A stretch of DNA of 64,000 nt, from the NCBI RefSeq assembly GCF_900176375.1, contig NZ_FWYF01000003.1, forward strand, positions 620,001 to 684,000. Direction: 5' to 3'. The position numbers were made by a program, and so were the translations under genes. The DNA is from Reichenbachiella faecimaris (GTDB taxonomy: Bacteria > Bacteroidota > Bacteroidia > Cytophagales > Cyclobacteriaceae). Position 1 is the first letter of the stretch, and the number at the start of each line of letters is the position of its first letter. This document shows, in pieces, positions 38,025 to 55,848 of this stretch. The notes beneath the pieces are model-generated. The model made no database searches and was not told the origin of the DNA. It saw nothing but the letters and a program-made list of their open reading frames with translations.

Positions 38025-38981
38025 CTAATAATCTCCATAAAGCCTTTGTAGCCAGGCAAAAAACTCCATGCTCCATGCCAGCGCAATATGGAGAATAACA
38101 CCACCCCAAATTCTTTTGGAATATAAAGCCAGAATGCCAATGAGGTAACCACCAAAAGCCGAGCTGATGGCTTCTGCCATTGGTTTGCCAAAGTGTAGAA
38201 ACATGTAAGCCCCTACCATAGCCAACACGGCATGACCACCAAGCACACGAGTAAACCCAATGACCAGAAACCCCCTGAAAAAAAGCTCAACATTAAGGAA
38301 ATTGGCTCCATAAACCCCCTCATAGATGAGCATGGGAACCCAACCCGAAATGTCATGTTCGACAGCAAATTTATCGCCACCACTAGGTAAGTAGCGAGGG
38401 TAGTAATTCGTAAGATCAGACAGGAATGAAGCCAATCCAATGCCGACCACTACCAATAAAAGTAAGACACCATAGGGCTTAAAGTCAGTGTTGCGCACGG
38501 TCAAACCATACCAACTCTGAGACTCGTCCTTTTTTCGTTCATACCAATAATAAAATAGGATCAGAGGTAGGAGTAGGGTGAAAAAGGTTTTGCCACGCCA
38601 CATCACTTTTCGCACAAAGCGATAGTCGATTACATCTAAATGTTCGATCAAGCCGTAGTGGAAGTACAGCGTTCTGCTAAAGCCTAAAAGCACGAAGCCA
38701 AAAATAAATAACAGCCAAAATTCTTTAGACCTTACCCATGCTTTGTTTGCATCGAAAACGTACAAAAGACTACAAATGACTAAAAATGGAAATCCCATAA
38801 ATAGCGTCATGTAGAACCAATGCCACAATGTTCCCTGGTATGAATCTACAATACCATCCTCAAAGTCAAACGTATAATTGAGATAAGTGCAAAGGGCAAG
38901 GAAAAGGGCTGTACAGAGGTATAACCCTAGGTGATAATGTTCCTGAAGATACTTGTTCAGGTACTTCCAGATTTGTTTCAT
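38025..38981 (-). CDS. CPBP-family intramembrane protease with variant motif
   Basis: 318 residues with about eight membrane helices. The C-terminal half has the CPBP (Rce1-like, Abi) pattern: NVELFFRGFL (motif 1, canonical EExxxR with first Glu replaced by Val but the second Glu and Arg kept), YMFLHFGKP (motif 2 with His) and LHIALAW (motif 3 His). CPBP proteins are glutamate intramembrane peptidases or their relatives. The catalytic Glu/His set is thus largely present, and the substituted first Glu leaves activity uncertain. Its start directly abuts the stop of the exported protein gene at 38982, so both are cotranscribed. Confidence 0.85.
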   Translation of the reverse strand: MKQIWKYLNKYLQEHYHLGLYLCTALFLALCTYLNYTFDFEDGIVDSYQGTLWHWFYMTLFMGFPFLVICSLLYVFDANKAWVRSKEFWLLFIFGFVLLGFSRTLYFHYGLIEHLDVIDYRFVRKVMWRGKTFFTLLLPLILFYYWYERKKDESQSWYGLTVRNTDFKPYGVLLLLVVVGIGLASFLSDLTNYYPRYLPSGGDKFAVEHDISGWVPMLIYEGVYGANFLNVELFFRGFLVIGFTRVLGGHAVLAMVGAYMFLHFGKPMAEAISSAFGGYLIGILALYSKRIWGGVILHIALAWSMEFFAWLQRLYGDY

Positions 38982-39476
38982 CTAGTCAAGAAGATCAAAA
39001 CTGAGTAAGATTTCCATGGCGTCTTCAGCCACTTCCATTTCCATTTCTTTCTCAAAGGCAACGTAGGCGTAGTAATTGTTTTTGTTCTCTTTGTCCATAA
39101 GACCTAAAACAAGATAGATCCGTCCATCTTTGGTCCCTGAGACAAAGCCACCAGACATACTTTCAAACTCCAGCAACTCCATTTCGTCTATCTCACTCAA
39201 ATTGAGATCGTCCTCTGCCATTTTGATAACAAAACCAGCCAAATCAAGACCTTCCAGTGCGCTATCTTTCAAAGGATATAGTCCGAATTCAATACCTTCC
39301 TTACTGGCTTCTAGTGCCTCTTCTGTATTTGTGGTAACAGCAAATTCTTGAGGCAATTCAAATTGTAGATGGTAATACGCCCATTCGTAAGACTGCCAGA
39401 CCTGAGCCTGCACCATAACTGGAAAAAGAATAAAAACAAGAACAAACGGAAAGGAAGCAGATTTACGGCGGGTCAT
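38982..39476 (-). CDS. Exported protein of unknown function upstream of the CPBP protease
   Basis: The frame is open to 39518, but ATG at 39476 (MTRRKSASFPFVLVFILFPVMVQAQ) gives a standard signal peptide and is preferred (164 residues). The mature part is strongly acidic with short helices (EALEASKEGIEFGLYPLKDS, EISEIDEMELLE-like region) and strands such as GRIYLVLGLMD and YYAYVAFEKEM. No recognised family. With its 0-bp junction to the CPBP gene it may be that protein's partner or substrate. Confidence 0.6.
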   Translation of the reverse strand: MTRRKSASFPFVLVFILFPVMVQAQVWQSYEWAYYHLQFELPQEFAVTTNTEEALEASKEGIEFGLYPLKDSALEGLDLAGFVIKMAEDDLNLSEIDEMELLEFESMSGGFVSGTKDGRIYLVLGLMDKENKNNYYAYVAFEKEMEMEVAEDAMEILLSFDLLD

Positions 39477-39532
39477 AATTTTATATTTTAGAATAAATAT
39501 AAATACATTATCATTCAATAGACAACGGAAAT

Positions 39533-39550
39533 TGCCGTTGGGATCAATAA
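39533..39550. promoter_or_regulatory. Short hairpin in a divergent promoter region
   Basis: CAACGG (39533-39538) and CCGTTG (39545-39550) form a 6-bp inverted repeat between two divergent genes, 35 bp before the kinase start. Possible operator; weak evidence. Confidence 0.3.
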
Positions 39551-39584
39551 TAAATTGATTAACTTTTAGAAAAATTTTCTGATT

Positions 39585-42077
39585 GTGGTAAGCATCAAAT
39601 CTTGTTTGAGTCTTCTGATCCTGTTTTGTGGTATTCAGGCTTTCTGCTCTAATCAGCCTGTGATCAATCCTGAAAATTTCCTTAATAACAATAAATCGCT
39701 AAAACCATATCTAAGGGTATACACAGATCCTACTGGCAATGCTTCTATAAATGACATATTAAGAGACGAACCTGTTTTTTCTCAACTCAAAGGTGAGCTC
39801 AGCAAAGAAAATATCTATTGGGGCAAGCTACTGGTCGAAAATAATCAAGAAGTCATTAAACTTTATCTACTGCATGTAGGGAAGAATGATTTTATTGATT
39901 GCTATTTTGTGCAAAACGACTCCATAGTACAGCACGAACAAAGTGGGTATATGTACCCACAACACTTGAAGTCTGTGCCTAAAGGCAGCTACTATATTCC
40001 GCTACTGATGAATGCCAATTCTACCCAAGAGTTGTACATCAGAATAGAAGAAAAAATCCACAATGATCCCGAATTCGATCTTCGTTTGAGTAGTGGAACC
40101 AACTGGGTTTATGAAATATTAGACAAGCATATCGTAGACTTTATTTTCCAAGGACTTTTTTGGATCATCATGATATACAACTTGTTCTTATTTGCCACTA
40201 CAAGAACAAAGGCCTACTTATATTATGCATTTTATTTAGGCTGTGTTGCGATCAACTATCTTTTTCTAACTGATATTCTGAGAGAATATGTTTTGAACGA
40301 AGTGCCGTGGCTCACTATCTATTTTATTCCAACAACCATTCTTGTAGTTGGCGCTTATTGGATTTTTGTCAACGATTTCATAAGTGCGAAAAAGTACTTC
40401 TTTCTTTATTATAAATGGATAAGAGTAGTATCCTATATTGATATAGGGATATTTTTTGTAAGTGTACTTGTCATTCACTTTACTAAAGAGATATATATTG
40501 TTACAGATGGTCTCAGAGCCGTAGCACTACTCAACGCCCTACTGATATTTGGTTTGATCTACCGGATTTATGATTCGAAATACGAGATGGTCAAGTACTA
40601 TATGTATGGAACAGGCGCTATGGTTATTATGGCGGTTATTGATACTATACTTTGGAATCCTTCGACCTCGCAGGCGAATTTGATGAAGTATGGATTGATA
40701 GCTGAGATAGTGGTCTTTTCTATTGGCCTGGCACAGAGAAAAAAAATACGAGAAAAGGAGAGAAGAAAGGCACTCAATAAGCAAATAGATCAGTTGAGAG
40801 TCAATGAAAGTTTGGCACAATGGCAGAAAGAAGAGCTCGAAAAAATCATTGATCACAGAACCAAAAAAATAAAGAAGAAAAATAAAAAGCTGAAACGCGC
40901 AATCAAAAAAGCCGAAACAGCAGCACGAGTAAAATCTGATTTCCTCTCAGTAATGAGCCACGAAATTCGAACGCCAATGAATGCAGTGATTGGAACTATT
41001 CATTTGCTGCTTGATGAAAATCCCAAAAGAGGACAGCTAGAACACCTCAAGACCTTGAAGTTCTCTTCTGAAAATCTCTTGATATTGATCAATGACATTT
41101 TGGATTATAGCAAGGTAGAATCTGGCAATGTTCAGCTAGAACATATTGATTTTCACCTCAGGGAGTTGACCAAAGGACTGGGAAATACCTACGAACAGAA
41201 AGCTGCTGAAAATGGCGTCAAGTTCAATATTCTGATTGATCACAATATCCCGTCCATGCTCAAGGGTGATCCAGCCAGGCTTACTCAGATATTGAATAAC
41301 CTGATCAGTAATGCCCTGAAGTTCACCCCTGGAGGCGAAATCAAATTATTGATTCATCTTTTGGCTAGAAGTAATGGGAGAGTGAAACTTGAGTTTGCCG
41401 TTGAGGATACGGGTATAGGTATTTCAAAAGACAAATTGAAGCTGATTTTTGAGAGTTTCACACAAGCACATGCGGATACCACTAGAAAATATGGGGGAAC
41501 AGGTCTTGGACTGGCAATTACAAAAAAACTAATCAAGCTATTTGACAGTCAGATTTTCGTGAAAAGCAAGGTCAATAGAGGCTCCAAATTTTACTTCTCT
41601 TTGTACATGGAAGAAGCTGCCCATGCCAATGCAGCCATAGAGCAAGACGACGTCTTGATGAAAGAAGAGGTGAAAGGTAAGCGGGTATTGGTGGTAGATG
41701 ATAATGAAATTAACCTGATGATGGCTAAGAAGTTCTTAGACAAGTGGGGATTGATTTGTGAAGTCGTATCGTCAGGACAAGATGCATTGATCAAGGTTTT
41801 TGATACAGATTACGATTTGATACTGATGGACTTACAAATGCCTGAAATGGACGGTTATGAAGTGACAGCAACCATTCGGTCTTTGGATAACACAGATTTA
41901 AAAAATATTCCGATTGTAGCTGTGTCTGCTGATACCTATGAAAATGTAAAAATAAAAATTGCTGAAGTAGGCATGAATGATTTTCTTTCCAAACCCTTCA
42001 ACCCTATGGAACTGCTTACAGTTGTGCACACATACACGAGAGGAGCAAGTCAGGAAATAGAGCCTACCAATTTGTAA
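39585..42077 (+). CDS. Hybrid sensor histidine kinase with 7TM-DISM sensor
   Basis: 830 residues from a GTG start. Order: signal peptide (to about residue 21), extracellular 7TMR-DISMED2-like beta domain (about 30-165), seven-helix 7TM-DISM region (about 185-390), coiled coil, HisKA with [14 protein letters not shown] (His459), HATPase with [25 protein letters not shown] and GGTGLGL, and a C-terminal receiver with [10 protein letters not shown] and [13 protein letters not shown] (Asp749) and SKPF. It is complete and all phosphotransfer residues are present. The next element would be an unlinked phosphotransferase or regulator; none adjoins it, so its target is not visible. Confidence 0.95.
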
Positions 42078-42245
42078 CCTTTCCCAATCTTTTCAATTCT
42101 ATTTAGTATTTTTAGAATATATATTATAATTATTAATGACTTGTTTAATGAGTTTTTTGCGTCTGTTTAAGTAACTCATTAAGAATGGTTTTTGATCAAC
42201 AATGATATTATCACTACTATTACACCCGAAAACCTCTAATCTGAT

Positions 42246-45200
42246 ATGAAACTTATTCTTTTACTCACCTTGGTTGTATTTCAAGATTCCTTGAGTGTAG
42301 ATAACAATAGAATGGTAAACGCTGCTCAAAAGTCTTATCAGGAAGCTGATTATTCAGGTGCTTTAGAAATGTACGCCAAGATCATAGAGTCGAATCAATC
42401 AGACAATAAGACTACAGATATCTTTCGAATGCAATTCAAACTAGTGGATTGTTTGATCAAGCTTGAAAGAAATAAGGAAGCCTCTACTACGCTCAAAGAC
42501 CTGAGGTTAGAATTATGGCGTGGTCAACACCAGGAGCTCTACCCAGCATATTTCCTTCATGCAGGCAACTTAGAGCTGGCTCTAGATAATGATACAAAAG
42601 CAATAGAAATGCTGGATTCGGCAAAAATGGTAACTAATGATGCTCTTCAGCTAATTGAAATCGAATTACGCCTGATGGATGTTTATGCATTGAATCGCGA
42701 TCTAATCTCAGCTACCCAAGTGCTAGATGAAATAAAAGAACTTTCGAATCAAGTCACATCTACTGAACCGTATGCAGGAGACATTCTTTTGGCAGAAGGT
42801 AGATTGCTGGGGCACAAAGGAGAGTTTAACCGTGCAATCAAAGTGCTCAACCAGGCCTTAGAACTAAAGAAAAAAAGCGTCAGTGATGGTCATCCTGATT
42901 TGGCGATTTATTATCAATCCCTTGGATTGCAGCATCAAGGACTGCTGCAATATGATAAGGCATTGGAGTATTTTAGCATAGCACTGGATATCAAATTGAA
43001 ATATTTTGGACAAAGGCATTTATCTGTTTCCGATACTTACAACGCCATTGGCTTTGTGCTTTACAAAAAAGCATTAGCTATTGAATCTCTAGAATTTCAT
43101 CGTAAAGCGTTATCTATCAGGAAGGAGAAACTGCAAGCGTCCAACTATAGGATCAAACAATCAAAGGAGATGCTCGGCATATCTTATGCCAAAGCTGATT
43201 CTTTTGCTAAAGCAGAGAAACTATTTCTGGAGGTTTATGAAACGCGCGTAAAAGACTTGGGCGAAAACAACCACTATGTTTCTTATTCCTTATACAATTT
43301 GGGTGCATTGGCCGAAGAAGTCTTGCAGTACGAAAAGGCTCTTGTTTACTTCAAGCGAGTGGTCGAAATGGGGAATAAAATCTATGGAGAGAACAATGCA
43401 GATCAAGCAGATAATTTGAATAGACTGGCGAGAATGTATTGGTACCTTGGGTACGATATTGAGGCTAAAAAGACCTACCAAAGAGCATTAGAGCATAATT
43501 TTCCAGAATATAAATTTGATGGCCACTACGCTTCTATGCCTGACTCGGATTATTATTTGACATTTAGAGAATGCAATCGATCACTACTCGGCCTGGCTGG
43601 TGTATATGGCAACTCAAATAATATAGACTCTCTTCGATTGGCCGTCCCGTTTATAAAGAAAGCTGAAGAATATTTGAACAAGCACAAACTGAGATTCTAT
43701 AACAATACTGATCTGACGAGTATTTCTCAGAGCTACAAATTCATAGCAGAAAACGCCAATGTTATTCTTTATAAGTTGGCTCAACGAGAAAATAAAAAGG
43801 AATACTTGGAGGAAATTTTCAGGTTGAGTGAGCAAGCCAGAGGATCCGCACTAAATACACAAATCAATGAACAAAAAGCTAGAGCTAATACTGGAATTTC
43901 GGTCGAAATGACCAATAAAGATGAGCAGATAAGAGCGAAGAAAGATTCGTTGAACTCACTTCTGGTATCGATGATGAGAGATGATGAAGACCTCGCTAAT
44001 ATTCAACCAGTCAAGAAAGAATTGTTTGAGCTGAATAGACAACAAGAAAAACTCATCTTGGAGATTGAAGAAAAATATCCAAAGTATTCAGAACTAAAAT
44101 ATGGGCAACGACCCGTGAGCGTATCAAATGTAAAATCCTATTTGAAGGAGCAGGAGGACAATGTGGCTTTGATGCAATATTTGTACACAGATAGAGAACA
44201 ATTGATGATTATGCTCATCACAAAAGATATCTATGAGGTCGTTTTTATTGACGATAGTTTGGGACTAAATAGTCATGTAGAAAGGTGTCGAAAGTCTATT
44301 GAAACATTCGATAAGGAATCATTTGAAAAAAGTGCTGATCTCCTTAACTCAATCTTAATAGCACCTGTGAAAAATTATCTGGATTCTGTAGACCGCATGG
44401 TGATCATACCAGATGGAGTGATTAGTTTGATACCTTTTGATGTGATTTGTGACAATAATAATATCGAAATGTTGCCTTACGTGATTAGCTATGATCTATC
44501 CGCAACATTGCTTTTGAGTCGTAAGCCATCTAGCAAGAGGTTAGACGGGTTTTTGGCTTATGCACCTGTTTTTGATGATCAGGATCAATCAAGCATAGAA
44601 CTGGGCGGACTAGTGTTGCGCTCAGATGCTTTGGTCAATCTTCCAGGAGCAATTGATGAAGTCAAGATGACAGGAGAAATTATGAATGGCACCATTCGAA
44701 TTGGTGATGAAGCTTCTGAATTCAATTTTAAAAACGAAGCTTCAGGATACAGTATTATACATTTGGCCACTCACTCGATTATTGATCAATCCAGTGATCA
44801 GTATTCAAAACTCATTTTTAGCGGCAGTGGTACAGATGAGGACAATTACTTGCATGCATTTGAACTTGCCAATATGGATATGGAGGCAAACCTTGTTACA
44901 CTTAGTGCCTGCAACACTGGAGTAGGAAAGCTCGAAGATGGCGAAGGTATAATGAGTATGGCAAGATCATTCAGATCAGCAGGAGTGCACAGCGTGGCGA
45001 TGAGCCTCTGGCCAGCATCTGACAAGTCCACGCCTGAGCTAATGAAGTACTTTTACCAAAACTTGAAGGCAGGACAGCGAAAAAGCGTAGCGCTCAATAA
45101 TGCCAGAAAGCAATATTTAACTACTGCCACTGGCAAAGCGCGGCATCCTTTTTATTGGGCTGGATTTGTGGTAATAGGAGACGACAGTCCGATCACCTCA

Positions 45201-45299
45201 GAAAACTCGAATATCGCAATGATCCTATCGATTTTGTTTTTACTCACTGCAGTACCGATCGTACTCGTCATCAAAAACAAATATCTCAGTATCGACTAA
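42246..45299 (+). CDS. TPR-CHAT protease, secreted with C-terminal membrane anchor
   Basis: 1017 residues. A short N-terminal signal-like helix (MKLILLLTLVVFQDSLS), then about ten TPR units (residues 25-440; PDLAIYYQSLGLQHQGLLQY, HLSVSDTYNAIGFVLYKKAL), a helical linker with coiled coil (about 540-610), and a CHAT domain (about 690-985) with HLATHS (His839/His843) and LSACNTG (Cys889), the His-Cys dyad of this caspase-like family. One membrane helix (about 990-1008) ends the protein, so the TPR-CHAT part would face the periplasm. It converges on a sigma/anti-sigma operon; CHAT proteins elsewhere act as proteases on signalling partners. Substrate here is inferred, not shown. Confidence 0.9.
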   Translation: MKLILLLTLVVFQDSLSVDNNRMVNAAQKSYQEADYSGALEMYAKIIESNQSDNKTTDIFRMQFKLVDCLIKLERNKEASTTLKDLRLELWRGQHQELYPAYFLHAGNLELALDNDTKAIEMLDSAKMVTNDALQLIEIELRLMDVYALNRDLISATQVLDEIKELSNQVTSTEPYAGDILLAEGRLLGHKGEFNRAIKVLNQALELKKKSVSDGHPDLAIYYQSLGLQHQGLLQYDKALEYFSIALDIKLKYFGQRHLSVSDTYNAIGFVLYKKALAIESLEFHRKALSIRKEKLQASNYRIKQSKEMLGISYAKADSFAKAEKLFLEVYETRVKDLGENNHYVSYSLYNLGALAEEVLQYEKALVYFKRVVEMGNKIYGENNADQADNLNRLARMYWYLGYDIEAKKTYQRALEHNFPEYKFDGHYASMPDSDYYLTFRECNRSLLGLAGVYGNSNNIDSLRLAVPFIKKAEEYLNKHKLRFYNNTDLTSISQSYKFIAENANVILYKLAQRENKKEYLEEIFRLSEQARGSALNTQINEQKARANTGISVEMTNKDEQIRAKKDSLNSLLVSMMRDDEDLANIQPVKKELFELNRQQEKLILEIEEKYPKYSELKYGQRPVSVSNVKSYLKEQEDNVALMQYLYTDREQLMIMLITKDIYEVVFIDDSLGLNSHVERCRKSIETFDKESFEKSADLLNSILIAPVKNYLDSVDRMVIIPDGVISLIPFDVICDNNNIEMLPYVISYDLSATLLLSRKPSSKRLDGFLAYAPVFDDQDQSSIELGGLVLRSDALVNLPGAIDEVKMTGEIMNGTIRIGDEASEFNFKNEASGYSIIHLATHSIIDQSSDQYSKLIFSGSGTDEDNYLHAFELANMDMEANLVTLSACNTGVGKLEDGEGIMSMARSFRSAGVHSVAMSLWPASDKSTPELMKYFYQNLKAGQRKSVALNNARKQYLTTATGKARHPFYWAGFVVIGDDSPITSENSNIAMILSILFLLTAVPIVLVIKNKYLSID

Positions 45300-45362
45300 T
45301 TGAGTCCTTAGAACTACTTATTTTCATTAAGTGGATTTCTTTTCCAAATGTTTCATATACAA

Positions 45363-45533
45363 TTATTCAATATCCTCACCTCCGTCTAGTATTGAGTCAG
45401 ACGAACCTTCAATCATGGTAGAAGGAGTGTTATGAATTTGTTCAAATTTCTCTAAAACTGGATCTTCATGGCAAGAAGTTAAAACGAAAAGGGCGATAAG
45501 GTTAAGCGCAAATAAAATTCTGTTCTTTTTCAT
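45363..45533 (-). CDS. 56-residue lipoprotein between the CHAT gene and anti-sigma gene
   Basis: A short frame encodes MKKNRILFALNLIALFVLTS followed by Cys21 (lipobox LTSC) and a 35-residue acidic tail HEDPVLEKFEQIHNTPSTMI...DGGEDIE. Signal peptide, lipobox and ATG start all fit an expressed small lipoprotein on the minus strand, 37 bp after the anti-sigma gene in the same direction. No family is recognised. It could be a peptide partner or substrate of the system around it. Confidence 0.6.
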   Translation of the reverse strand: MKKNRILFALNLIALFVLTSCHEDPVLEKFEQIHNTPSTMIEGSSDSILDGGEDIE

Positions 45534-45569
45534 ATTTCTTATACAATTGTGATAAAGTCATTTTCAAAA

Positions 45570-46307
45570 TTAATTTAATTTTTCAAGTAATTCTGAGACT
45601 CGTTCTGCGTAATCTTTTGAAGTTTTGAGTCTCCCCAATCGCTTGATAGCTAGATCAGGCTTGTTCTGTCTCAAATCTATCAGAGAAAGGTACCAAAGGG
45701 AGGCCTCTGAGTAGTAGAGGATATTTTGATTCTCAAGTTGTTTGAAATTCTCTTTGGCCTTTTCTATATAGCCCAATTCCATTTCACAGATGGCCTTGAA
45801 AAATAATGCCGAAGAATCTGTCGGAGATTCTTCCAGATATTGACTGAAATACAAGGAGGCCCTGTCATAATTTGTGGCGTCATATTGGATGAACGCCTTT
45901 TCTTTGTTGCCAGCTGATTCGCTATTTTCATCTCTAGTGGATGTATATTCAAAATTTTCGTACGGCTCGTAATAGGCGAGAAATAACTCCTCTCGACTGG
46001 GTTCAAGTACCCATTTACCAATCAGCATCATGCCCACCAGAACGGACGCAGCTATGGCCATTTTTAGAAAAGGAAACGAATTCGGTTTTTCAACCATGGC
46101 GTTCGATTCCCATTGATCGAAGTTTTTTTTGATAGACTCACGAGCATGTTGTCGAATGCCTAATATCTCTATTTCTATTTGGTCAGCCTCAGCCCTGAAT
46201 GCTAGATCTTGGTCATATTTCTCCTGAAATTGTTGTGCTTCTTCCTCACTCAATTTTCCATTGAAATAGTCTCTGATAAAAATGTCAACCTCTTCCATTT
46301 TCCTCAT
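45570..46307 (-). CDS. Membrane anti-sigma-like protein with periplasmic TPR
   Basis: 245 residues. N-terminal residues 1-70 (MRKMEEVDIFIRDYFNGKLS, EEEAQQFQEKYDQDLAFRAE) have the sequence pattern of Bacteroidota anti-sigma N-termini; one membrane helix at about 79-100 (FLKMAIAASVLVGMMLIGKW) separates it from a C-terminal domain with TPR-like helices (NYDRASLYFSQYLEESP, SALFFKAICEMELGYIEKAK). The start overlaps the sigma factor stop as ATGA (46304-46307), as usual for sigma/anti-sigma pairs. It is predicted to hold the sigma factor at the inner membrane. Confidence 0.75.
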   Translation of the reverse strand: MRKMEEVDIFIRDYFNGKLSEEEAQQFQEKYDQDLAFRAEADQIEIEILGIRQHARESIKKNFDQWESNAMVEKPNSFPFLKMAIAASVLVGMMLIGKWVLEPSREELFLAYYEPYENFEYTSTRDENSESAGNKEKAFIQYDATNYDRASLYFSQYLEESPTDSSALFFKAICEMELGYIEKAKENFKQLENQNILYYSEASLWYLSLIDLRQNKPDLAIKRLGRLKTSKDYAERVSELLEKLN

Positions 46308-46858
46308 TTTTGGGTACTTTTTCTCAACCTATCCAGACATCTTTTTTTCTGATTTTTAGCTACCCCATCATTTTTATAACCCAGCCGCTGGGCGATGTCT
46401 TTAAATGACAGACTTTCGTAGTAAAACAGTTTCAACAAAGACTTACAAGGCTCCAGCATATGATCTATTTCTCTCTTGATCTGTGCTGCAGCAGCGGCTT
46501 TATCGCTTCCAAGTTCTTCAGTGCCCTTCAGGAAAACCAAATGCTCGTTCAATCGGTCTTCGTGTTTGAGCACTGTATTTTGCTTTCTAAACTTCATCAG
46601 CACCTGATTCTTTGCTACACTATACAAATAAGTGCTCAATTGGCTCGTCAGCTGATCCAATCTGCCTTGTACTATATTTTCATACAGATACATCTGGGCT
46701 TCTTGATAGGCATCACGAGCTTCTTCTTCAGTCAGCGAAAGCTCTTTTTGGCACCAGGCAATAAACTTCTCTTGCTCTTTGAGATAAAAGGTTCTAAACA
46801 GAGCCTCCTTTCCTTCTTTTAGCTGATCAACAATGTCCTGATCCAAATTCTTAGTCAT
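46304..46858 (-). CDS. ECF-type RNA polymerase sigma factor
   Basis: ATG 46858 (MTKNLDQDIVDQLKEGKEAL) is preferred to the open frame's 46906, giving 184 residues. Region 2 is represented by FYLKEQEKFIAWCQKELSLT, EEARDAYQEAQMYLYENI and STYLYSVAKNQVLMKFRKQN, region 4 by CKSLLKLFYYESLSFKDIAQ followed by RLGYKNDGVAKNQKKRC, a helix-turn-helix. This sigma type is commonly coupled to a TPR anti-sigma gene and found near CHAT genes in the phylum. It is divergent from the giant repeat protein, a plausible target. Confidence 0.9.
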   Translation of the reverse strand: MTKNLDQDIVDQLKEGKEALFRTFYLKEQEKFIAWCQKELSLTEEEARDAYQEAQMYLYENIVQGRLDQLTSQLSTYLYSVAKNQVLMKFRKQNTVLKHEDRLNEHLVFLKGTEELGSDKAAAAAQIKREIDHMLEPCKSLLKLFYYESLSFKDIAQRLGYKNDGVAKNQKKRCLDRLRKSTQK

Positions 46859-47004
46859 TAATAGTTTTCGTTGCAAAAGGTATACATCAAATCTAAATAA
46901 GCCCAAACATCTTCTTAGGCTCAGTGGAAAGTTTTTTTCTCTTCCCTGTATACCTCTGGTCTTCTGTGCAATTAAGGGACACGAAACTTTAAAACCTTAT
47001 TGCC

Positions 47005-50000
47005 ATGAAAACTTTACTGTCTGATAAGCTTGCACTCTCTGTTAGATTTTTTTACGATCCAAAATTTTGGATTCAACTATCAAAAGCTTTATTGATTTTT
47101 ATCCTTTGTTTATGTACTTGGATAGGGGCAAAAGCCCAATCTATCAGCTATAAGCCATTTTATGATTTTTCAGTAGGCCTTACGCATGAAGATTTTTATG
47201 CGGTAGGTACAGAAGAAGGAGCTCCGAATGGAATCAGCTTTAATGATGATGGCACCCGAATGTTCATTATTGGTTATGGCTCTGATGCTGTTCAGCAGTA
47301 TAGTTTGTCATCTCCATACGACATAACCTCTACGGTAGAACATGAGGGCTCATATAACGTGTCTGCTGAGACAAATACGCCAAGGGATGTTGATTTTTCA
47401 GATGATGGTATGCGCATGTATATACTGGGAACAGATACAAGGCAGATGCATGAATATACGTTAAGTGCGGCCTATGATATTACTTCAACAGTCACTTATA
47501 CAACTAATACTCGATCAATTTCAGGGTGGGAATCTTTACCACTGGCTGTAGAATTTTCTGCAGATGGTTTGAAGGCTTTTTTTGTAGGTGCTCAGAGCAA
47601 AGTGTATGAAACCCGCATGTCAACTCCGTTCGATGTTGCTACTGGTAGTGCAGGGGTTTGGACATATACAGAAGATTTGAGTGCAGGTGACTTACGCGAT
47701 ATTCGATTCAGTCCAGATGGTAGAACGATGTATTTATTGGATGAATTTAATGATATTTTGAAAGTAGAATTGAATGTCGCCTTTGACCTTTATGAAGGAT
47801 ATACCGAATACGGATCTGTTTTCAATACGTCTGACAATGAAACCGAAACCTGGTCCATGGCTTTTGGCCTAAATGGCAGTCGCTTGTTGACATCTGAAAT
47901 ATCAGATGATAGAGTCAATCAATATAATTTCAATAATCCTACATTTTATGAATCTCTAGCTAATGACGGATCAATTGAGACTGCGGTCACATCTTTCGCA
48001 TTAGATGGAGAAACTTTCAACAATCCGGGAGGAAATTTAACTTATGGATCGGATTTTAGCATAGCTAATTTGCCTGCTGGTTTTTCGGCCATATTTTCTG
48101 TAGAACCAGAAGGTACCTTTGGAACGCTGACTTTCTCTGGTAGTACAGCTCTCCACCAAATCGACAACAACATCAGTGGACTCGTTTTTACTTTCGAAAA
48201 CTCCGCTTTTGCTGGTGATGATGCTTCTGCTGTAGCGAATGCAGTCGGTCATAACTCAGGTATAAATATTGACTTTAGAAACAACGGAAGCCCATTCATT
48301 TCTTTTGGTGGTTATGCAGACCTTTCCAAAGCAACACATGAGGGAGTTACTTCTTCATTAGCCACAGAAGACAATCAATTGACTGGTATGGCTTTTAGTT
48401 CTGATGGAATGAAGGTATTCATCACTGGTTCTCAACATGATGCCATATACCAATACAATCTTTCCAGTCCCTTCGACATTACTCAAGGGGTTTCTTATAG
48501 CAACAACTCAGTAGATATTTCAGGAGATGATACCGCTCCGCTTGGTTTGGCATTCAACCCTACAGGTACTAAAATGTTTGTAGTTGGCGCCTTAGGCGAT
48601 GAAGTGATGCAATATTCACTTTCGTCCCCATTCGACCTAAGTAGTACGGTGGAAAATGAAGGTAGTCCATTCAGCCTAGCCGCTCAAACGTATCGAATGG
48701 ACATTACATTTAGCCATGATGGACTGCTTATGTTCATTCCTGGCGAACAAATATTTGCCTATGCGCTCAATACACCGTTTGATATCACGACGGGTGGTAC
48801 ATTGGTTGGAGAACTCGATCATGGCATAGCTGCTTTCGCTACTGACGTAGAATTTAGTCCTGACGGTATGACTTTATATGCCTCTTCGGGATCTTCTGTA
48901 GTGACATTCCAATTAGAAGCCCCTTATTCATTAAATCAACAGGTTGGGAAGAGTGTGTCAACTTCTTTCAGTTCGTACGAAACGAGCATTATGAGTATTG
49001 AATTCGGTCCTGATAGACAGAAATTATTCGTAGCGGGTACTACAGGTGATGACCTGAATCAGTTTATGCTACCTATTTTACCCTTGGAAGAGTCCATTAC
49101 TAACAATGGGACTTTAGAAGGATCTAGGACAATTCGTATTGCGGATGACAAATTCACCAAAGCTGGTTCCACCCTGACGGCAGGAGTGGATTTCACAACT
49201 ACAGGTGTTCCTGCCGGACTTTCACCAGTACTGACTGTGGCGTCTGATGGACTATCCGCTGATTTAACATTTTCGGGTCAGGCTACATCTCATGGACCAG
49301 CAGCTAATATTGAGGATATAGTTTTTACTTTCAGTAATTCCGCATTTGTTGATAGTGATGCGAATGATGTGCTTTATGCCGTAGGTTCAAGCAGCCATTA
49401 TAGTATGGAATTTATAGATGCGAATGCTTCGGTATTTCATGCTAATGGATTTAAAATCGATGGTACAGTGAACTACACAGGATTTTCTATGTCTGTAAGA
49501 TCACAAGCCAGCAATCCGAGCGGGTTTGCTTTTAGTACGGATGGTATGAAGATGTATGTAGTAGATCAAACTTCACGTACTGTTTTTCAGTATAGCCTTA
49601 GTGCTCCGTTTGTGACCTACCCTGGCATGAGTTACGATGAGGTGACCTATGCTGTGGGACAGGATACTGCTCCTAAAGATGTAGAATTCAGTGAAGATGG
49701 TACCAAAATGTATATCGTGGGCGATGGAAACAACCGGATATATCAGCATACCCTATCTACCCCCTTCGATTTGTCTACTGCCAGTTACGGTGATACTCAT
49801 TTAATCGTAACTAATGAAGAGACTACACCAGATGGGATGTGTTTCAGTAAAAATGGAAGAAGACTGTATGTCATTGGCAATGGCAGCGGCAATATGGTGC
49901 ATCAGTACAGGTTATCACAGCCGTATGATTTGTCATCAGAGATTTCATTAGTTGGGGAAGTAGAAGTGTCATTTGTATCCATACCAACAGGCGTGTTTGT

Positions 50001-53000
50001 TTCTCCTGATGGCCTTACACTTCAGGCGATCGGTACTGGTGGCGACCTGATTTATCAATACAACATGTCCGTGCCACATGATGTCAGTAGCGCGGTATAT
50101 GCTTTAAAGATTTTGAATGTTAGAAGTAAGTCTAATTCACCTGCAGATCTCACCTTCAGTAGCGATGGGAGTCGTGTGATTATTATTGGGTCCAACTATG
50201 ACAATGTAGACCAATGGGAAATCGATACTGATGACTTTCAGGAGTCTGCATCCACACCGGGAGCAGTGGAAGGGGCCATAAGTTTGAGTATAGTAGGTGA
50301 TCAATTCAGTAATGCGGGAGGGTCATTATCAAATCCAGATGATTTCTTAGTGCCCGGCTTACCTACAGGCTTGGTACCCAATATGACTATTTCTGAGGAT
50401 GGATTGACAGCGACCCTGACGTTCACAGGTTCAGCAGAAAGTCACCAAAATAATGATGGCATAAGCGATCTTGTGGTTACGTTCGAAGATGGTGCCTTTG
50501 ACTCAGGGGATGCATCCGGAACACTCAATGCAGATATTAATACTGGTGCCAATATCAACTTTGCCAATGATGCTACATTGGTTTACTCCAACGGCTATAC
50601 GCTTGTAAATGACCCAGTTTTCTTTGCGTCTGTGCCTTCTTATGATACAGGTTCTAAAAGTGTGGCCCTCAGTGCAGATGGATATAAAATGTATGTAGTT
50701 GGTGACAATAATGAAATAATTCATCAGTATACCTTATTACATCCCTTCGAGCCGGGAAAAGGTTATAATTTGAATGGGTCATTCACTTTGCCTGGTAGCT
50801 CACAAGAAGCTATTACATTCAATAATGATGGTACGAGCTACTATTATCTTTCTGGTGCAGACTATGTGGCACAAGTAAGCCTATCGACTCCTTGGGATAT
50901 ATTATCTGACAGAACATCGGTAGGAACATTCGATTTTTCATCACAAGACACTGGGGCTTCCGATGTTACATTCAACGATGATGGCACCAAAATGTATATG
51001 ATTGGGTTCGTGAGTGATGCGATACATCAATACTCCTTGGATAAGCCTTTCGATCTTTCTACTGGAGTTTCTTATGATAATGTTTCATATGACATTTCGG
51101 CCCAAGCTACATTTCCTAGAAGCCTTGATTTTAATGCTGATGGTTCGAGATTGTTTATGCATGGTTCCAATGGTATTTTTGAATATCACCTCAGCAATCC
51201 GTTTGATATTAGTACTGGGATAACTTATACAGGAAACAACTATACGCCTTCTGAAGGAGCAGGTTTTGGGTTTGAACTTGTGGATGGCGGAAATAAAATG
51301 ATAGTAGTCAATGCCAATAATATTTACCAATACAACTTCGAAGCTGACGGGTTTGTGGAGTCGGCGAACAATGACGGCACGTTGGACGGGTTGATAGGTA
51401 TTCAACTGGGATATGACACGTTTGTGAATGCAGGCGCAACGCTGGCTCCTACTACACATTTTACATTGACCGGAATTCCTACTGGACTGACACCCACAAT
51501 GACCGTAGCCACAGATGGAAAATCGGTCAGTTTGAGATTGGAAGGCGCCGTGAGCAGTCATCAAGACAGTGACGATGTTAGCAATATACAGATCAGTTTT
51601 ACAGATGCAGCTTTTACTTCAACGAGCGCAGCAGCAGTCATCAACGCTATCAACTACGATACTGGTTTTGGAATCGACTTTCAGGACAACAACGCTCATA
51701 TCATCTATGGAAAGGCTTTGAACTTTGATGAATCACTTCCTAAGCTTAAGACTACCTATAGTGTGGCTACGCAGAGCGATCAGCCCAATGCGATGACGAT
51801 GAACCCTGAGGGAACAAAGATGTACGTGATAGACTATAATAGCGAGACCATATCGCAATACATTTTGACCATACCATTTGATTTAACCAGCATGTCTTTT
51901 GATAATTCTCTGGATCTATCTGCTGAGATCAGCGCTCCGGCTGCCATTTGTTTTAGTAGCAATGGCCAAAAAATGTTTATTCAATCATTTAACAACATTC
52001 ATTATCAATATACAATGAACACGGCCTATGACGTGAGTGCCGGAGCTACACTAGCAGGCACATTTACTTCTTCCTCCCAAGGGTTGCAGTCTTCCGGCTT
52101 TTGGTTCAAACCGGACGGTACCAAGATGTGGATTACAAGCTCGGCAGATAATGAGGTGAACCAATACAGCCTGGAGACCCCATTTGACATTACTGCAGGC
52201 GTGTCCTACGATGGTTATTCGCTAAGTGTGACTACCCGAAACTACACCAGCTTGATTTTTTCTAGTGACGGCAAAAGCCTATTCATCGGCAATGGCCCCT
52301 ATCCTGGCTCAGCTGGTATCACACAGTATGGGCTCAATGTACCATTTGATCTGACTGGTGGGACGGAGTATATTCGTGGTTTTAATGTACACGATATCAC
52401 GGGATCTCCTCAGGGTATATTTCTAAACCAGGATGAAACTAAATTCTATGTGTTGGGATCTACGGATGATTCGGTGTTTGAATTTGATTTAGAAATCGAT
52501 GATTTTGCCGAAGGAAACTTAAATGATGGCAGTGTCGAAGGGGCATTGGAGATTAGAATAGTAGATGAGCCTTTCACAAACGCCGATGGCCATTTAACAC
52601 ACGGATCTGATTACTCAATTACGAACCTGCCTGCCGGGCTCAACCCTCAGCTTGCTGTTGCAGCAGATGGATACTCAGCGACTTTGACATTTGAAGGCAA
52701 GGCCAATGCACATCAGGATATCAATGATGTAGGGAATTTGAGTTTCACTTTCAGCAATTCCGCCTTTGTCAATGGTGACGTGTCTGCTGTGGCCAATGCC
52801 ATTGCTTCTGCTTCTAATAGAAGTATTGATTTCAGAGATAATGTGCCAGGACTAACTTATGGCGATGTTTATGATTTGGGTATGGCAAGTCATGATGCCT
52901 CACCTTACGACATGTCGGGTCAGGATAGCGACCCCACCGACCTTTCGTTTAGTACAGACGGCTCCAAACTATTTGTTTCGGGCAATAATAGCGACATGAT

Positions 53001-55848
53001 CCATCAGTACAGTCTAACTTCCCCGTTCAATGCTACAAATATTGCATCCTATGATGGCGGCTTCGACAATTCGGCTCAGGATGAATCAGTAGAAGATCTT
53101 GCTTTTTCTGCGGATGGTATGCGCATGTTCTTATTAGGAGGAGATAACTATAACGTCTATCAATACAATCTAACCACAGCGTTCGACATTACTGACGGCG
53201 TTACGTTTAGTGGCAATGCCTTTAATTTTGAAGTATATGGACAAGATACTTATGCCTTTACCTTCAATGCTGACGGTACAAAAATGTACATTGCCTCCAC
53301 CAGCGACTATGAAATTTTTCAATTCTCGTTGTCATCACCTTATGACCTTGGTTCTACCATAACCGACGATGGTGATCCGCTCATTACCGCGGATGAATCG
53401 ACTGAATTTTACGCATCTCCTACGGGAATTGTCTTTTCAGCAGACGGGCGCTATCTGATGATGACCCAAGATGGGGATGACTACAATATCATGCGTTATA
53501 TTCTCAATGTTCCGTTTGATGTGACTCAGGGTGCTTTGAGAGATTTGAATGTTTATGATTTAGATCAGCATAGTATCTGGGGATCAGGCATTGCTCTAAG
53601 CGCTGATGGTTCACATGTATTTGTTACAAACGGTGACGATGCTACCATTGAAGGATTTACTATTGACGTTGGGGGCTTTATCGAAACAGGTGCCAATGAT
53701 GGCACTGTGACAGGTTCGATGGAGATAGCTATTTTCGATGATACATTTAGTAGCATGGGAGGAACGTTTGCCTCGGGTAGTGATTATACAATTACTAACT
53801 TGCCCACAGGGCTCATACCTACACTTACGGTGGCTGAGGACGGTTATTCGGCTACGTTAACATTGAGTGGAAATGCAGTAAGTAATGCAAACGCCAACGA
53901 CATCAGTGGTTTGGTATTCAATTTTATGAATTCAGCCTTTACCAATAGCAGCGCTTCGGATGTAGCGAATGCAGAAAATTCGGATAGCAAGATTGGTATA
54001 GATTTTCTTGCCAATACTGGCAATGATATACTCACCTTTTCATTTGCTACGGAGACAGGCCCAGCGACCATAGATGCTGAGAATCATTCAGTGGATATTG
54101 AGATTACGTTTACGTCCGATATTACGAACCTGATACCTGATGTTACAGTATCCGATGGTGCAGATTATTCGCCGAATGGTGCTACAAATTTCACAGATCC
54201 AACGACGATTACCGTAACTGCAGAGGACGGTACCCCACAGGATTGGTTAGTTACTGTTACAAAAGCACCACTGAGTATGGCTACTGATATCATCTCTTTT
54301 ATTGCGGAAGGTCAGACGGGTCCTGCAATTGTAGATGCCATCAATCATACGGTCGAAATGGAGGTGCTATTTGGAACTGAGGTGGCCAACTTGGCTCCGA
54401 CCATTACCGTGTCGCCAGGTGGTAGTATTTCACCGAATAGTGAAGTGAGCAGGGATTTTAATGATCCGGTTGTTTACACCGTGACTGCCGAGGACGCAAC
54501 TACCACGCAAGATTGGACAGTAACTGTAACTATTGCACCAAATGACGCTACGGATATTTTGAGTTTTACACTAGCCGAACAGAGCGCGGAGGCGGCAATA
54601 GACGATTCGAACCATACGGTAGACATTACCGTGGTGGCTGGTACGGACGTAAGCAGCCTCTCCCCGAGCTTTACGGTTTCGCCTGGAGGTACTGTTGTTC
54701 CCAGTAGCGGAACGGCCCAGGATTTCACCGATCCTATAGTATATACAGTAACTGGCCAAGACGGGATAACCGAGCAAGAATGGACGGTGACTGTAGAAGT
54801 AGAACTATTTACAGGTACAGAGATACTTTCTTTTGTTCTAGGCGAACAAACCCAATCTGCTGAAATAGACAACATCAATAATACGGTTGAAATTGAAGTG
54901 GCCTATGGCACTGATTTAACCAATTTGAGCCCAACGATTACTGTTTCGGCCGGAGCCAGTATCTCGCCTCTGGGTGCTCAGGATTTTAGTGAAGCGGTGA
55001 TCTATACGGTTACAGCAGAAGAAACTACGATCACGGAAGCATGGACAGTGACGGTTACAGAAGCACCAAGTAACGAAACAGATATTTTGACTTTCGTTTT
55101 GGATGAGCAAACTGAGGAGGCCAGCATAAATGCTGATAATCACACAGTGGCTATTGAGGTAGCCAATGGTACAGATCTAAGTAGCCTAGAGCCAGCGCTC
55201 ACAGTATCCGCAGGGGCTACTATTTCACCATCTGGTGTTCAGGACTTTAGCCAGACTGTAAGCTATACAGTGACGGCCGAAAACGAAATTACCACACAAA
55301 CCTGGTCAGTAACTGTGACCGAAGCACCTAGTAGTGCGACGGATATTTTAACTTTTGAGCTAGCAGCACAAACAGGAGCAGCGACTATAGACATCACCAA
55401 TCATACCATTGGCGTTGAGGTGGAATTTGGTACAGATTTGACGAGTCTGGAGCCTGCCATAACCGTTTCTGATGGCGCGACATTATCGCCATCAGGAGCA
55501 CAGAACTTCACCAATTCGTTCACCTATACAGTTATTGCAGAGGATGAAAGCACTTCACAGGAATGGGTGGTTACAGTTACTGAGGAAGACCAAGAAGTAT
55601 TGGCAGCGTCTGAGTTAGATTTTAAGCTAAAGGTCTATCCAAACCCAGCCACAGATCAAATTTTAGTGGAAGGGTTGACGAACGATACAAAGGTGGAGGT
55701 CATAGACTTAAGAGGGCAGACCGTGCTCTATCGAAGCATTAAAAATATGGAATACATCAATTTGACGAATTTAAAATCTGGTCTATACCATGTCCGATTT
55801 ACAAACGATAAGATTTCCACAACAACCAGACTTCTTATTCGGAAATAA
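47005..55848 (+). CDS. Giant secreted repeat protein with type IX C-terminal signal
   Basis: 2947 residues. A long N-terminus (about 45 residues) ends in a signal peptide (KALLIFILCLCTWIGAKAQ). Six consecutive ~380-residue modules follow: each holds several beta-propeller-like blades (FSxDGxxMYVxGxxxDxIxQYxLSSPFDI) then an Ig-like block (NDGTVEGSLEIxIxDDTFxNAGGxL...NLPxGLxPTLTVAxDGxSATLTFxG...FSNSAFxxxDASAVANA). After these come six ~90-residue DUF5018-like domains (DILTFVLDEQTEEASINADN, TVTAENEITTQTWSVTVTEA). The end (LKVYPNPATDQILVEGL, LKSGLYHVRFT, TTRLLIRK) is a type A sorting domain. Function is probably adhesion; the ligand is unknown. Confidence 0.9.
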   Translation: MKTLLSDKLALSVRFFYDPKFWIQLSKALLIFILCLCTWIGAKAQSISYKPFYDFSVGLTHEDFYAVGTEEGAPNGISFNDDGTRMFIIGYGSDAVQQYSLSSPYDITSTVEHEGSYNVSAETNTPRDVDFSDDGMRMYILGTDTRQMHEYTLSAAYDITSTVTYTTNTRSISGWESLPLAVEFSADGLKAFFVGAQSKVYETRMSTPFDVATGSAGVWTYTEDLSAGDLRDIRFSPDGRTMYLLDEFNDILKVELNVAFDLYEGYTEYGSVFNTSDNETETWSMAFGLNGSRLLTSEISDDRVNQYNFNNPTFYESLANDGSIETAVTSFALDGETFNNPGGNLTYGSDFSIANLPAGFSAIFSVEPEGTFGTLTFSGSTALHQIDNNISGLVFTFENSAFAGDDASAVANAVGHNSGINIDFRNNGSPFISFGGYADLSKATHEGVTSSLATEDNQLTGMAFSSDGMKVFITGSQHDAIYQYNLSSPFDITQGVSYSNNSVDISGDDTAPLGLAFNPTGTKMFVVGALGDEVMQYSLSSPFDLSSTVENEGSPFSLAAQTYRMDITFSHDGLLMFIPGEQIFAYALNTPFDITTGGTLVGELDHGIAAFATDVEFSPDGMTLYASSGSSVVTFQLEAPYSLNQQVGKSVSTSFSSYETSIMSIEFGPDRQKLFVAGTTGDDLNQFMLPILPLEESITNNGTLEGSRTIRIADDKFTKAGSTLTAGVDFTTTGVPAGLSPVLTVASDGLSADLTFSGQATSHGPAANIEDIVFTFSNSAFVDSDANDVLYAVGSSSHYSMEFIDANASVFHANGFKIDGTVNYTGFSMSVRSQASNPSGFAFSTDGMKMYVVDQTSRTVFQYSLSAPFVTYPGMSYDEVTYAVGQDTAPKDVEFSEDGTKMYIVGDGNNRIYQHTLSTPFDLSTASYGDTHLIVTNEETTPDGMCFSKNGRRLYVIGNGSGNMVHQYRLSQPYDLSSEISLVGEVEVSFVSIPTGVFVSPDGLTLQAIGTGGDLIYQYNMSVPHDVSSAVYALKILNVRSKSNSPADLTFSSDGSRVIIIGSNYDNVDQWEIDTDDFQESASTPGAVEGAISLSIVGDQFSNAGGSLSNPDDFLVPGLPTGLVPNMTISEDGLTATLTFTGSAESHQNNDGISDLVVTFEDGAFDSGDASGTLNADINTGANINFANDATLVYSNGYTLVNDPVFFASVPSYDTGSKSVALSADGYKMYVVGDNNEIIHQYTLLHPFEPGKGYNLNGSFTLPGSSQEAITFNNDGTSYYYLSGADYVAQVSLSTPWDILSDRTSVGTFDFSSQDTGASDVTFNDDGTKMYMIGFVSDAIHQYSLDKPFDLSTGVSYDNVSYDISAQATFPRSLDFNADGSRLFMHGSNGIFEYHLSNPFDISTGITYTGNNYTPSEGAGFGFELVDGGNKMIVVNANNIYQYNFEADGFVESANNDGTLDGLIGIQLGYDTFVNAGATLAPTTHFTLTGIPTGLTPTMTVATDGKSVSLRLEGAVSSHQDSDDVSNIQISFTDAAFTSTSAAAVINAINYDTGFGIDFQDNNAHIIYGKALNFDESLPKLKTTYSVATQSDQPNAMTMNPEGTKMYVIDYNSETISQYILTIPFDLTSMSFDNSLDLSAEISAPAAICFSSNGQKMFIQSFNNIHYQYTMNTAYDVSAGATLAGTFTSSSQGLQSSGFWFKPDGTKMWITSSADNEVNQYSLETPFDITAGVSYDGYSLSVTTRNYTSLIFSSDGKSLFIGNGPYPGSAGITQYGLNVPFDLTGGTEYIRGFNVHDITGSPQGIFLNQDETKFYVLGSTDDSVFEFDLEIDDFAEGNLNDGSVEGALEIRIVDEPFTNADGHLTHGSDYSITNLPAGLNPQLAVAADGYSATLTFEGKANAHQDINDVGNLSFTFSNSAFVNGDVSAVANAIASASNRSIDFRDNVPGLTYGDVYDLGMASHDASPYDMSGQDSDPTDLSFSTDGSKLFVSGNNSDMIHQYSLTSPFNATNIASYDGGFDNSAQDESVEDLAFSADGMRMFLLGGDNYNVYQYNLTTAFDITDGVTFSGNAFNFEVYGQDTYAFTFNADGTKMYIASTSDYEIFQFSLSSPYDLGSTITDDGDPLITADESTEFYASPTGIVFSADGRYLMMTQDGDDYNIMRYILNVPFDVTQGALRDLNVYDLDQHSIWGSGIALSADGSHVFVTNGDDATIEGFTIDVGGFIETGANDGTVTGSMEIAIFDDTFSSMGGTFASGSDYTITNLPTGLIPTLTVAEDGYSATLTLSGNAVSNANANDISGLVFNFMNSAFTNSSASDVANAENSDSKIGIDFLANTGNDILTFSFATETGPATIDAENHSVDIEITFTSDITNLIPDVTVSDGADYSPNGATNFTDPTTITVTAEDGTPQDWLVTVTKAPLSMATDIISFIAEGQTGPAIVDAINHTVEMEVLFGTEVANLAPTITVSPGGSISPNSEVSRDFNDPVVYTVTAEDATTTQDWTVTVTIAPNDATDILSFTLAEQSAEAAIDDSNHTVDITVVAGTDVSSLSPSFTVSPGGTVVPSSGTAQDFTDPIVYTVTGQDGITEQEWTVTVEVELFTGTEILSFVLGEQTQSAEIDNINNTVEIEVAYGTDLTNLSPTITVSAGASISPLGAQDFSEAVIYTVTAEETTITEAWTVTVTEAPSNETDILTFVLDEQTEEASINADNHTVAIEVANGTDLSSLEPALTVSAGATISPSGVQDFSQTVSYTVTAENEITTQTWSVTVTEAPSSATDILTFELAAQTGAATIDITNHTIGVEVEFGTDLTSLEPAITVSDGATLSPSGAQNFTNSFTYTVIAEDESTSQEWVVTVTEEDQEVLAASELDFKLKVYPNPATDQILVEGLTNDTKVEVIDLRGQTVLYRSIKNMEYINLTNLKSGLYHVRFTNDKISTTTRLLIRK
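47150..54010 (+). repeat. Six tandem ~1.14-kb modules inside the giant gene
   Basis: Module ends, each marked by a codon stretch for (G/S)I(D/N)F after a NSAF...ANA segment, fall near 48280, 49418, 50562, 51685, 52833 and 54008, spacing 1123-1175 bp. Divergence between modules at DNA level is high, so the duplication is old. Confidence 0.8.
54010..55590 (+). repeat. Six tandem ~265-bp DUF5018-like units
   Basis: Units beginning at about 54010, 54286, 54550, 54820, 55078 and 55336 each encode D(I/E)L(S/T)F..., NHTV, I(T)VS.G...SP, F...YTVTAED...W.VTVT. The linkers contain APSNETDIL or a close variant. They precede the C-terminal sorting domain. Confidence 0.75.

Follow-up and report, generated by a model that had tools for sequence, protein, structure and literature searches.

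What does a membrane protein with tetratricopeptide repeats (TPR) and a CHAT protease domain do beside a sigma factor and an anti-sigma-like protein? The question is raised by a 64,000-nucleotide stretch of Reichenbachiella faecimaris DNA (the window; contig NZ_FWYF01000003.1, positions 620,001 to 684,000), which comes from a 4.7-Mb Bacteroidota genome, here G000. G-numbers denote genomes, L-numbers denote loci, and positions are those of the window. In this locus a TPR-CHAT gene faces, from the opposite strand, genes for an extracytoplasmic function (ECF) sigma factor and a membrane anti-sigma-like protein, and a giant gene diverges from the sigma gene. An earlier note, made from the letters alone, had described the intact dyad, signal-like start and tail helix of the TPR-CHAT protein, the ATGA overlap of the sigma and anti-sigma genes and a 56-residue lipoprotein; all of these are found among the features that follow. 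As set out below, the CHAT, sigma and anti-sigma genes very probably form one module, in which the CHAT protein is a putative protease and the anti-sigma-like protein its predicted substrate.

42246..45299, + strand: TPR-CHAT protein of 1017 aa, putative periplasmic protease with an inner-membrane anchor (Pfam, AlphaFold model, fold matches)
42246..42299, + strand: signal-like start of the CHAT protein (hydrophobic N-terminal residues)
44328..45182, + strand: CHAT protease domain, residues 695-979 (Pfam)
44772..44774, + strand: candidate catalytic His, H843 (invariant in 55/55 alignment rows and 41/41 sigma-linked CHATs)
44910..44912, + strand: candidate catalytic Cys, C889 (invariant in 55/55 alignment rows and 41/41 sigma-linked CHATs)
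45021..45023, + strand: D926, acidic, candidate S1-pocket residue (invariant, 55/55)
45204..45293, + strand: C-terminal membrane helix of the CHAT protein, 987-1016 in the model (hydropathy, AlphaFold)
45363..45533, - strand: lipoprotein, 56 aa, accessory, not conserved (open reading frame, LTSC lipobox)
45570..46307, - strand: membrane anti-sigma-like protein, 245 aa, with cytoplasmic helices, membrane helix, linker and TPR (Pfam, alignments, model)
45933..45935, - strand: R125, candidate P1 residue for cleavage, in the juxtamembrane linker (conservation; coil in the model)
46011..46067, - strand: anti-sigma membrane helix, residues 81-99, with conserved Ala-Ala, A86 and A87 (alignment, model)
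46304..46858, - strand: ECF sigma factor, 184 aa (TIGR02937)
46859..46885, - strand: sigma-facing promoter-like site, GTATACC-N16-ATTA, directly adjoining the start codon used (pattern search)
46948..46974, + strand: mirror promoter-like site toward the giant gene (pattern search)
47005..55848, + strand: giant secreted protein with repeats, 2947 aa, probable target of sigma (open reading frame, domain matches)
55633..55839, + strand: type IX secretion sorting domain at the C-terminus of the giant protein (PF18962, E 2.2e-12; TIGR04183, E 2.1e-12)

Recurrence of the gene neighbourhood

The CHAT, sigma and anti-sigma proteins were searched against 59 genomes, with matches in 52, 55 and 38 of them. 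The 150 listed CHAT-match rows that were used gave 119 candidate regions beyond a first 20 stretches. We took 120 stretches around CHAT matches (the first 20 plus 100); the region of the window itself and 18 more were left out. The stretches were scored with profiles made for this analysis. The CHAT profile found 143 open reading frames, and the 126 that cover more than 85% of the domain were counted. A CHAT gene is called linked when a sigma gene lies within 2 kb or an anti-sigma gene within 1 kb. By this measure, 38 of 77 membrane-tailed CHATs are linked versus 5 of 49 tail-less ones (odds ratio 8.6, Fisher p 6e-6, with relatedness uncorrected). The tail-less CHATs of G006 and G009, which have a sigma gene about 1 kb away and no anti-sigma gene, are linked in this count and unlinked in the dyad count given below. 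Conservation of the neighbourhood, which the earlier note had set beforehand as a test, is thus borne out at the level of gene families. A second set, of named records with at least 2 kb on both sides of the CHAT gene, has 23 of 48 tailed CHATs linked versus 3 of 13 tail-less ones; among the CHATs excluded from it, those less than 2 kb from a stretch end, 2 of 17 tailed and 2 of 5 tail-less genes are linked.

Thirty-seven CHAT genes, from 24 genomes, have both partners, with each anti-sigma gene used once. These triplets include opposite-strand and same-strand arrangements. The CHAT gene lies downstream of the anti-sigma gene in 34 of the 37 (29 pairs are tail to tail and 5 point the same way), and the two genes overlap in 13. 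Distances among the CHAT proteins correlate with those among the anti-sigma proteins (0.418, a value reached by 8 of 2000 within-genome shuffles). From the excess of linkage, the triplets and the correlated distances we conclude that the module recurs, and because the same gene families adjoin in many genomes, their grouping is more than chance. We are accordingly confident that the genes belong together as one module.

In several loci (L059, L189, L205, L207, L226 and L237) one sigma/anti-sigma pair is accompanied by at least two CHAT genes. Full membrane-tailed CHAT genes number 13 in genome G029; for 11 of these no sigma or anti-sigma gene is listed nearby. The genome also has several sigma/anti-sigma pairs that lack a CHAT gene close by, and many of its contigs are short. 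Its loci (L044, L063, L068, L069, L071, L072, L074, L076, L079, L082 and L086, and further L167, L171, L174, L176 and L177) look as if they made up a large unlinked network.

The CHAT protein and a conserved arginine in the anti-sigma linker

The CHAT domain is recognized by PF12770 at residues 695-979 (E 6e-55, 187.1 bits against a cut-off of 24), and the same protein matches TPR_12 (E 3.6e-25). The His-Cys dyad is intact, as HLATH (H843) and SACN (C889), and it is kept in all 41 CHATs near a sigma or anti-sigma gene. An AlphaFold model (predicted local distance difference test, pLDDT, 83.7; predicted template-modelling score, pTM, 0.80) has DdvA, the TPR-CHAT protein of Craspase and separase among its closest solved folds. 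The residue aligned to D926 is Asp in DdvA and Ser in Csx29. D926 is a candidate for lining the S1 pocket, a role carried over from separase, whose substrates have Arg at P1. The two closest named relatives of the window's CHAT protein are Cyclobacteriaceae and Flammeovirgaceae records. All topology calls made here use Kyte-Doolittle hydropathy and charge. The protein opens with the signal-like MKLILLLTLVVFQDS, and a hydrophobic stretch at 990-1008, near the C-terminus, is followed by a basic tail, KNK. From these features its CHAT domain is predicted to lie outside the cytoplasm, in line with the earlier expectation that it is not cytoplasmic.

The sigma factor scores 52.1 bits with TIGR02937 (cut-off 42.9), and its gene shares four bases (46304-46307; ATGA, minus strand) with the anti-sigma-like gene directly after it. 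The 245-aa product of the latter has no Pfam anti-sigma family at E 0.01. Hydropathy and the model divide it into a cytoplasmic part, one helix (about 81-99) and a TPR part. Its AlphaFold model (pLDDT 87) finds mostly TPR proteins among the listed matches of a PDB comparison. We infer that it holds the sigma factor through its cytoplasmic part.

Over the 37 triplets, the most conserved positions of the anti-sigma-like protein are Met1, the two alanines of the membrane helix and then R125, ahead of all TPR residues. The R125 column has Arg in 33 of 37 rows, the others being S, S, Q and F, and never Lys. A second alignment of 35 rows has 33 Arg and 2 Lys; two of its rows repeat the first set (the window, and L237, which is identical to a row from G023), and the 33 new rows alone have 31 Arg and 2 Lys; L181 and L199 share 89% identity. 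In this second alignment W205 is more conserved than R125 (35 of 35) and Y142 equals it (33). The residue after the arginine is small or polar (G, S, D, N, A, T or E) in every Arg row, and in many rows the arginine closes a longer motif, Y-P-N, about four to six residues, R. For comparison, the periplasmic part is 3.5% Arg and 6.4% Lys. In the AlphaFold model R125 sits just outside the membrane in a mostly coil stretch, residues 113-133; the block 121-130 has pLDDT 66, and lower values occur only in the blocks of 71-100 around the membrane helix. A fixed residue in an otherwise loose juxtamembrane linker of variable length makes R125 a likely protease site, while the proposal that it is the exact residue cut seems to us evenly poised. 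The earlier proposal that the CHAT protein cuts the anti-sigma protein is retained as a hypothesis, with its likely target moved from the TPR part to the coil that precedes it.

Arg-type anti-sigma proteins and membrane-tailed CHATs occur in the same 26 of 26 genomes, and 33 genomes have neither; this agreement is partly circular, as the loci were mostly fetched by CHAT matches and CHAT presence was judged on the fetched loci, and its regular expression is loose enough to pass G028, where the Arg column has Ser. The same-strand triplets L118 and L113 (G008 and G028) have T-A-M-S-S in place of the arginine, possibly reflecting another cut specificity.

The 56-aa lipoprotein had been suggested as the signal or substrate of the system. 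We reject it as a core component, since in four of the closest orthologues (L041, L042, L181 and L199) the ends of the anti-sigma and CHAT genes overlap by four bases and leave no room for it. It has no Pfam match at E 0.01, and its one NCBIfam match is far below cut-off (BamJ, 17.5 against 100 bits). Elsewhere its slot is empty or filled by unlike genes, which makes the lipoprotein accessory at most. L059 and L093 have short lipoproteins there, with sequences unlike that of the window. Three genera have a lipoprotein family of about 240 aa (L133 7512-8231, L138 9810-10544, L157 7481-8203). Small proteins that show no obvious signal, by impression of at least two further kinds, fill the slot in L084 (4397-4825), L121 (9937-10308) and L119 (6826-7497), and in L109 (9699-10067) and L112 (7791-8201).

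Promoter-like sites and the giant protein

Two mirror-image GTATACC-N16-ATTA sites lie between the sigma and giant genes, at 46859-46885 on the minus strand and 46948-46974 on the plus strand. The pattern GTATACCTN{15,18}ATTA has two matches in the whole 4.7-Mb genome, both of them here, and none outside the cassette; a reversed control has 0. Related pairs stand in orthologous loci. In L041, L042, L181 and L199 each side carries GTTCAC-N16/17-GACTA; in the more distant L096 the sequence at both sites is GTTTAC-N16-GTACTA, and L045 has a single site of this kind. The pattern occurs 4, 8, 4 and 6 times in the genomes G012 and G035 and those of L181 and L199, and two of the matches in each are the paired sites. 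When 72 linked loci were put through a mirror-site test, with shuffles made within 30-base blocks, L041, L042, L181, L199, L096 and L247 reached 0 or 1 of 40 shuffles; L247 is unsure because one or two of 72 are expected by chance. The window itself scored 0 in this test because the script used the longer ORF start of the sigma gene, at 46906, further upstream than the start taken here (46858).

With the starts taken, no more than 0-4 bases separate the sigma-side site from the sigma gene in all 6 loci viewed, namely the window (46858-46862), L041, L042, L181, L199 and L096. If the starts are right, this would suggest a leaderless sigma mRNA; it is a suggestion only because four of the starts are the most upstream GTG or TTG chosen by the ORF tool. 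The CHAT gene was also considered as a member of the regulon and dropped: a loose upstream pattern is weak and scattered in the window and L042 and absent from four other loci, so that the CHAT gene is probably outside it.

The giant gene is present in all five orthologous loci, including the window, and in some it runs off the stretch end. The giant proteins of L042 and L199 align to that of the window over about 1900 residues (40 and 32%), and those of L041 and L181 in short repeats only. The simplest reading is that the sigma factor drives its own operon plus one neighbour, the giant surface protein. This type-IX-secreted protein, whose gene is faced by a second copy of the promoter-like site, is the probable output of the system, and it was missed in the earlier note.

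The annotated neighbours, from 38025 to 55848, comprise a CAAX-type protease, a small secreted protein, a hybrid histidine kinase and the giant protein. The kinase, at 39585-42077, carries a 7TMR-DISM sensor and lies upstream of the CHAT gene on the same strand.

Proposed mechanism, alternatives and known systems

We propose that the ECF sigma factor is held by the cytoplasmic part of the one-helix anti-sigma protein, and that a C-terminal anchor fixes the TPR-CHAT protein to the inner membrane while its protease lies outside the cytoplasm. The long TPR superhelix of the CHAT protein would sense a signal, upon which the CHAT domain would cut the anti-sigma protein after R125, within its juxtamembrane linker on the non-cytoplasmic side. 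An RseP-type intramembrane protease would then remove the stump and release the sigma factor; an RseP homologue is present in the genome (TIGR00054, 237.4 bits, over cut-off, G000:C4:560722-562005). The freed sigma factor would fire the two mirror promoters, for its own operon and for the divergent giant surface protein. On balance we judge this mechanism as a whole to be probable.

Several observations weigh against it. Thirty-nine of the 77 membrane-tailed CHATs have no near partner, and some sigma/anti-sigma pairs have no near CHAT gene. Of 22 anti-sigma-like proteins that have no CHAT gene nearby, 13 (counted by eye) keep the arginine as well; it is therefore not tied to CHAT by linkage, and the Arg motif is unsupported as a marker of such linkage. 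The cassette in the form found in the window is rare: among the matches listed, seven genomes of the same genus hold no close orthologue of it (best CHAT match 260 bits, against 755 in G012 and 733 in G035). In the four orthologue genomes, moreover, the reversed control of the promoter pattern is commoner than the pattern (10, 18, 11 and 16); taken by itself, then, the pattern is no rarity in them, and the telling feature is its pairing within one short gap.

These points lend themselves to other explanations. The TPR part of the anti-sigma protein might inhibit the protease in the manner of securin, with R125 as a pseudosubstrate; the protease would then really act on some other protein of the envelope, for instance the giant protein or further type IX cargo, and the sigma factor would be activated by lost binding. 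The separase-like fold, the tight genetic coupling (cutting itself is what we infer) and the arginine kept without a near CHAT gene would all suit such an arrangement. We consider it unlikely, as the arginine lies in low-confidence coil beside the membrane, just where a site-1 cut is expected, and as many linked loci have no giant gene beside sigma, for which reason the giant protein is not a common substrate. Alternatively, the CHAT protein could be a non-cutting scaffold or receptor that alters the conformation of the anti-sigma protein, which another envelope protease would remove. The sigma/anti-sigma pairs without a near CHAT gene would fit this, but a scaffold has no need of the dyad that all 41 linked CHATs keep, and we regard the idea as improbable.

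Doubt may also fall on the arginine itself. It could be kept for folding of the linker or for binding a ligand, with protease and anti-sigma protein sensing in parallel, as its retention without a near CHAT gene and its frequent place in the Y-P-N motif would allow. The linker is, however, low-confidence coil in the AlphaFold model, and Arg-type anti-sigma proteins share their 26 genomes with membrane-tailed CHATs (by the loose and partly circular criterion above), which leaves this explanation with a small share of our belief. That the genes are mere neighbours, brought together by chance or hitch-hiking, would suit the sparse distribution of the exact cassette; against triplets in 24 genomes, on opposite and on same strands, and correlated CHAT and anti-sigma trees, we give it hardly any credence.

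Cleavage of the anti-sigma protein by the CHAT protein, the reading we prefer, has relatives among known systems. Separase has a fold similar to that of the CHAT protein, but is a eukaryotic cohesin protease with no sigma factor. The RseA/DegS/RseP system resembles the present one in its one-helix anti-sigma protein and in the site-1 cut expected outside the membrane, and an RseP homologue is present here; its site-1 protease, DegS, is of a serine protease class, whereas here it would be a CHAT cysteine protease. DdvA (PDB 8rot, 8rw5) ranks joint first by Foldseek and is the best profile match of the CHAT protein, with His and Cys aligned. The DdvA/DdvS pair of these entries is presumably that of Myxococcus xanthus. 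It too is a transmembrane ECF anti-sigma system with a shared TPR-CHAT fold, although there one polypeptide holds anti-sigma and TPR-CHAT, which here are two proteins separately anchored in the membrane. The ddvS promoter needs DdvS, which is active once DdvA is inactivated, and the external signal of DdvA was unknown as of 2015 (PMC4374960). DdvS controls an antiphage island (PMC12288465), unlike the predicted output here, one surface protein.

In Craspase, a TPR-CHAT protease cuts the inhibitor of an ECF sigma factor; it is switched on by target RNA through Cas7-11, and Csx30 is cut between residues 427 and 429 (PMC10028731). This type III-E CRISPR system (Csx29-Csx30-CASP-sigma) shares the TPR-CHAT fold, whereas the present protein is membrane-anchored, with a predicted cut at Arg and an Asp where Csx29 has Ser. 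No Cas partner is found among the annotated neighbours at 38025-55848, the rest of the genome not having been searched for Cas7-11, and PADLOC has no match for the CHAT, lipoprotein, anti-sigma or sigma protein. CHAT proteins have been noted near ECF54 sigma factors, whose listed example is from Geodermatophilus and which are said to lack an anti-sigma factor (PMC8999054); here the neighbourhood differs, with an anti-sigma-like gene overlapping sigma. The remark in the earlier note that no such pathway was known for a non-CRISPR CHAT protein in this phylum calls for correction, given these ECF54 neighbours and DdvA, an anti-sigma protein with TPR-CHAT and solved structures. PorA-PorXY-SigP of Porphyromonas gingivalis likewise ties an ECF sigma factor to type IX cargo, a C-terminal-domain protein; it is activated via a two-component system, and no CHAT protein is mentioned in the text consulted (PMC7712824). 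For split membrane TPR-CHAT/anti-sigma pairs in Bacteroidota, no paper was found among the open-licence literature.

The module may belong to something wider. Membrane-tailed TPR-CHATs could be phylum-wide periplasmic, separase-like, Arg-specific site-1 proteases, which turn on ECF sigma factors by cutting their partner anti-sigma proteins at one conserved arginine and form expanded networks that act in cis or in trans; DdvA would be a fused form, and some cassettes would control a surface protein of their own. We offer this generalization tentatively, holding it somewhat more doubtful than assured. If it is true, a large set of bacterial CHAT proteins that do not belong to CRISPR systems would gain a function, and there would be a new type of anti-sigma site-1 protease whose cut site is predicted to one residue. 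DdvA would then be a fused version of the same mechanism, and a separase/caspase-like fold would be linked to the control of the cell surface in Bacteroidota.

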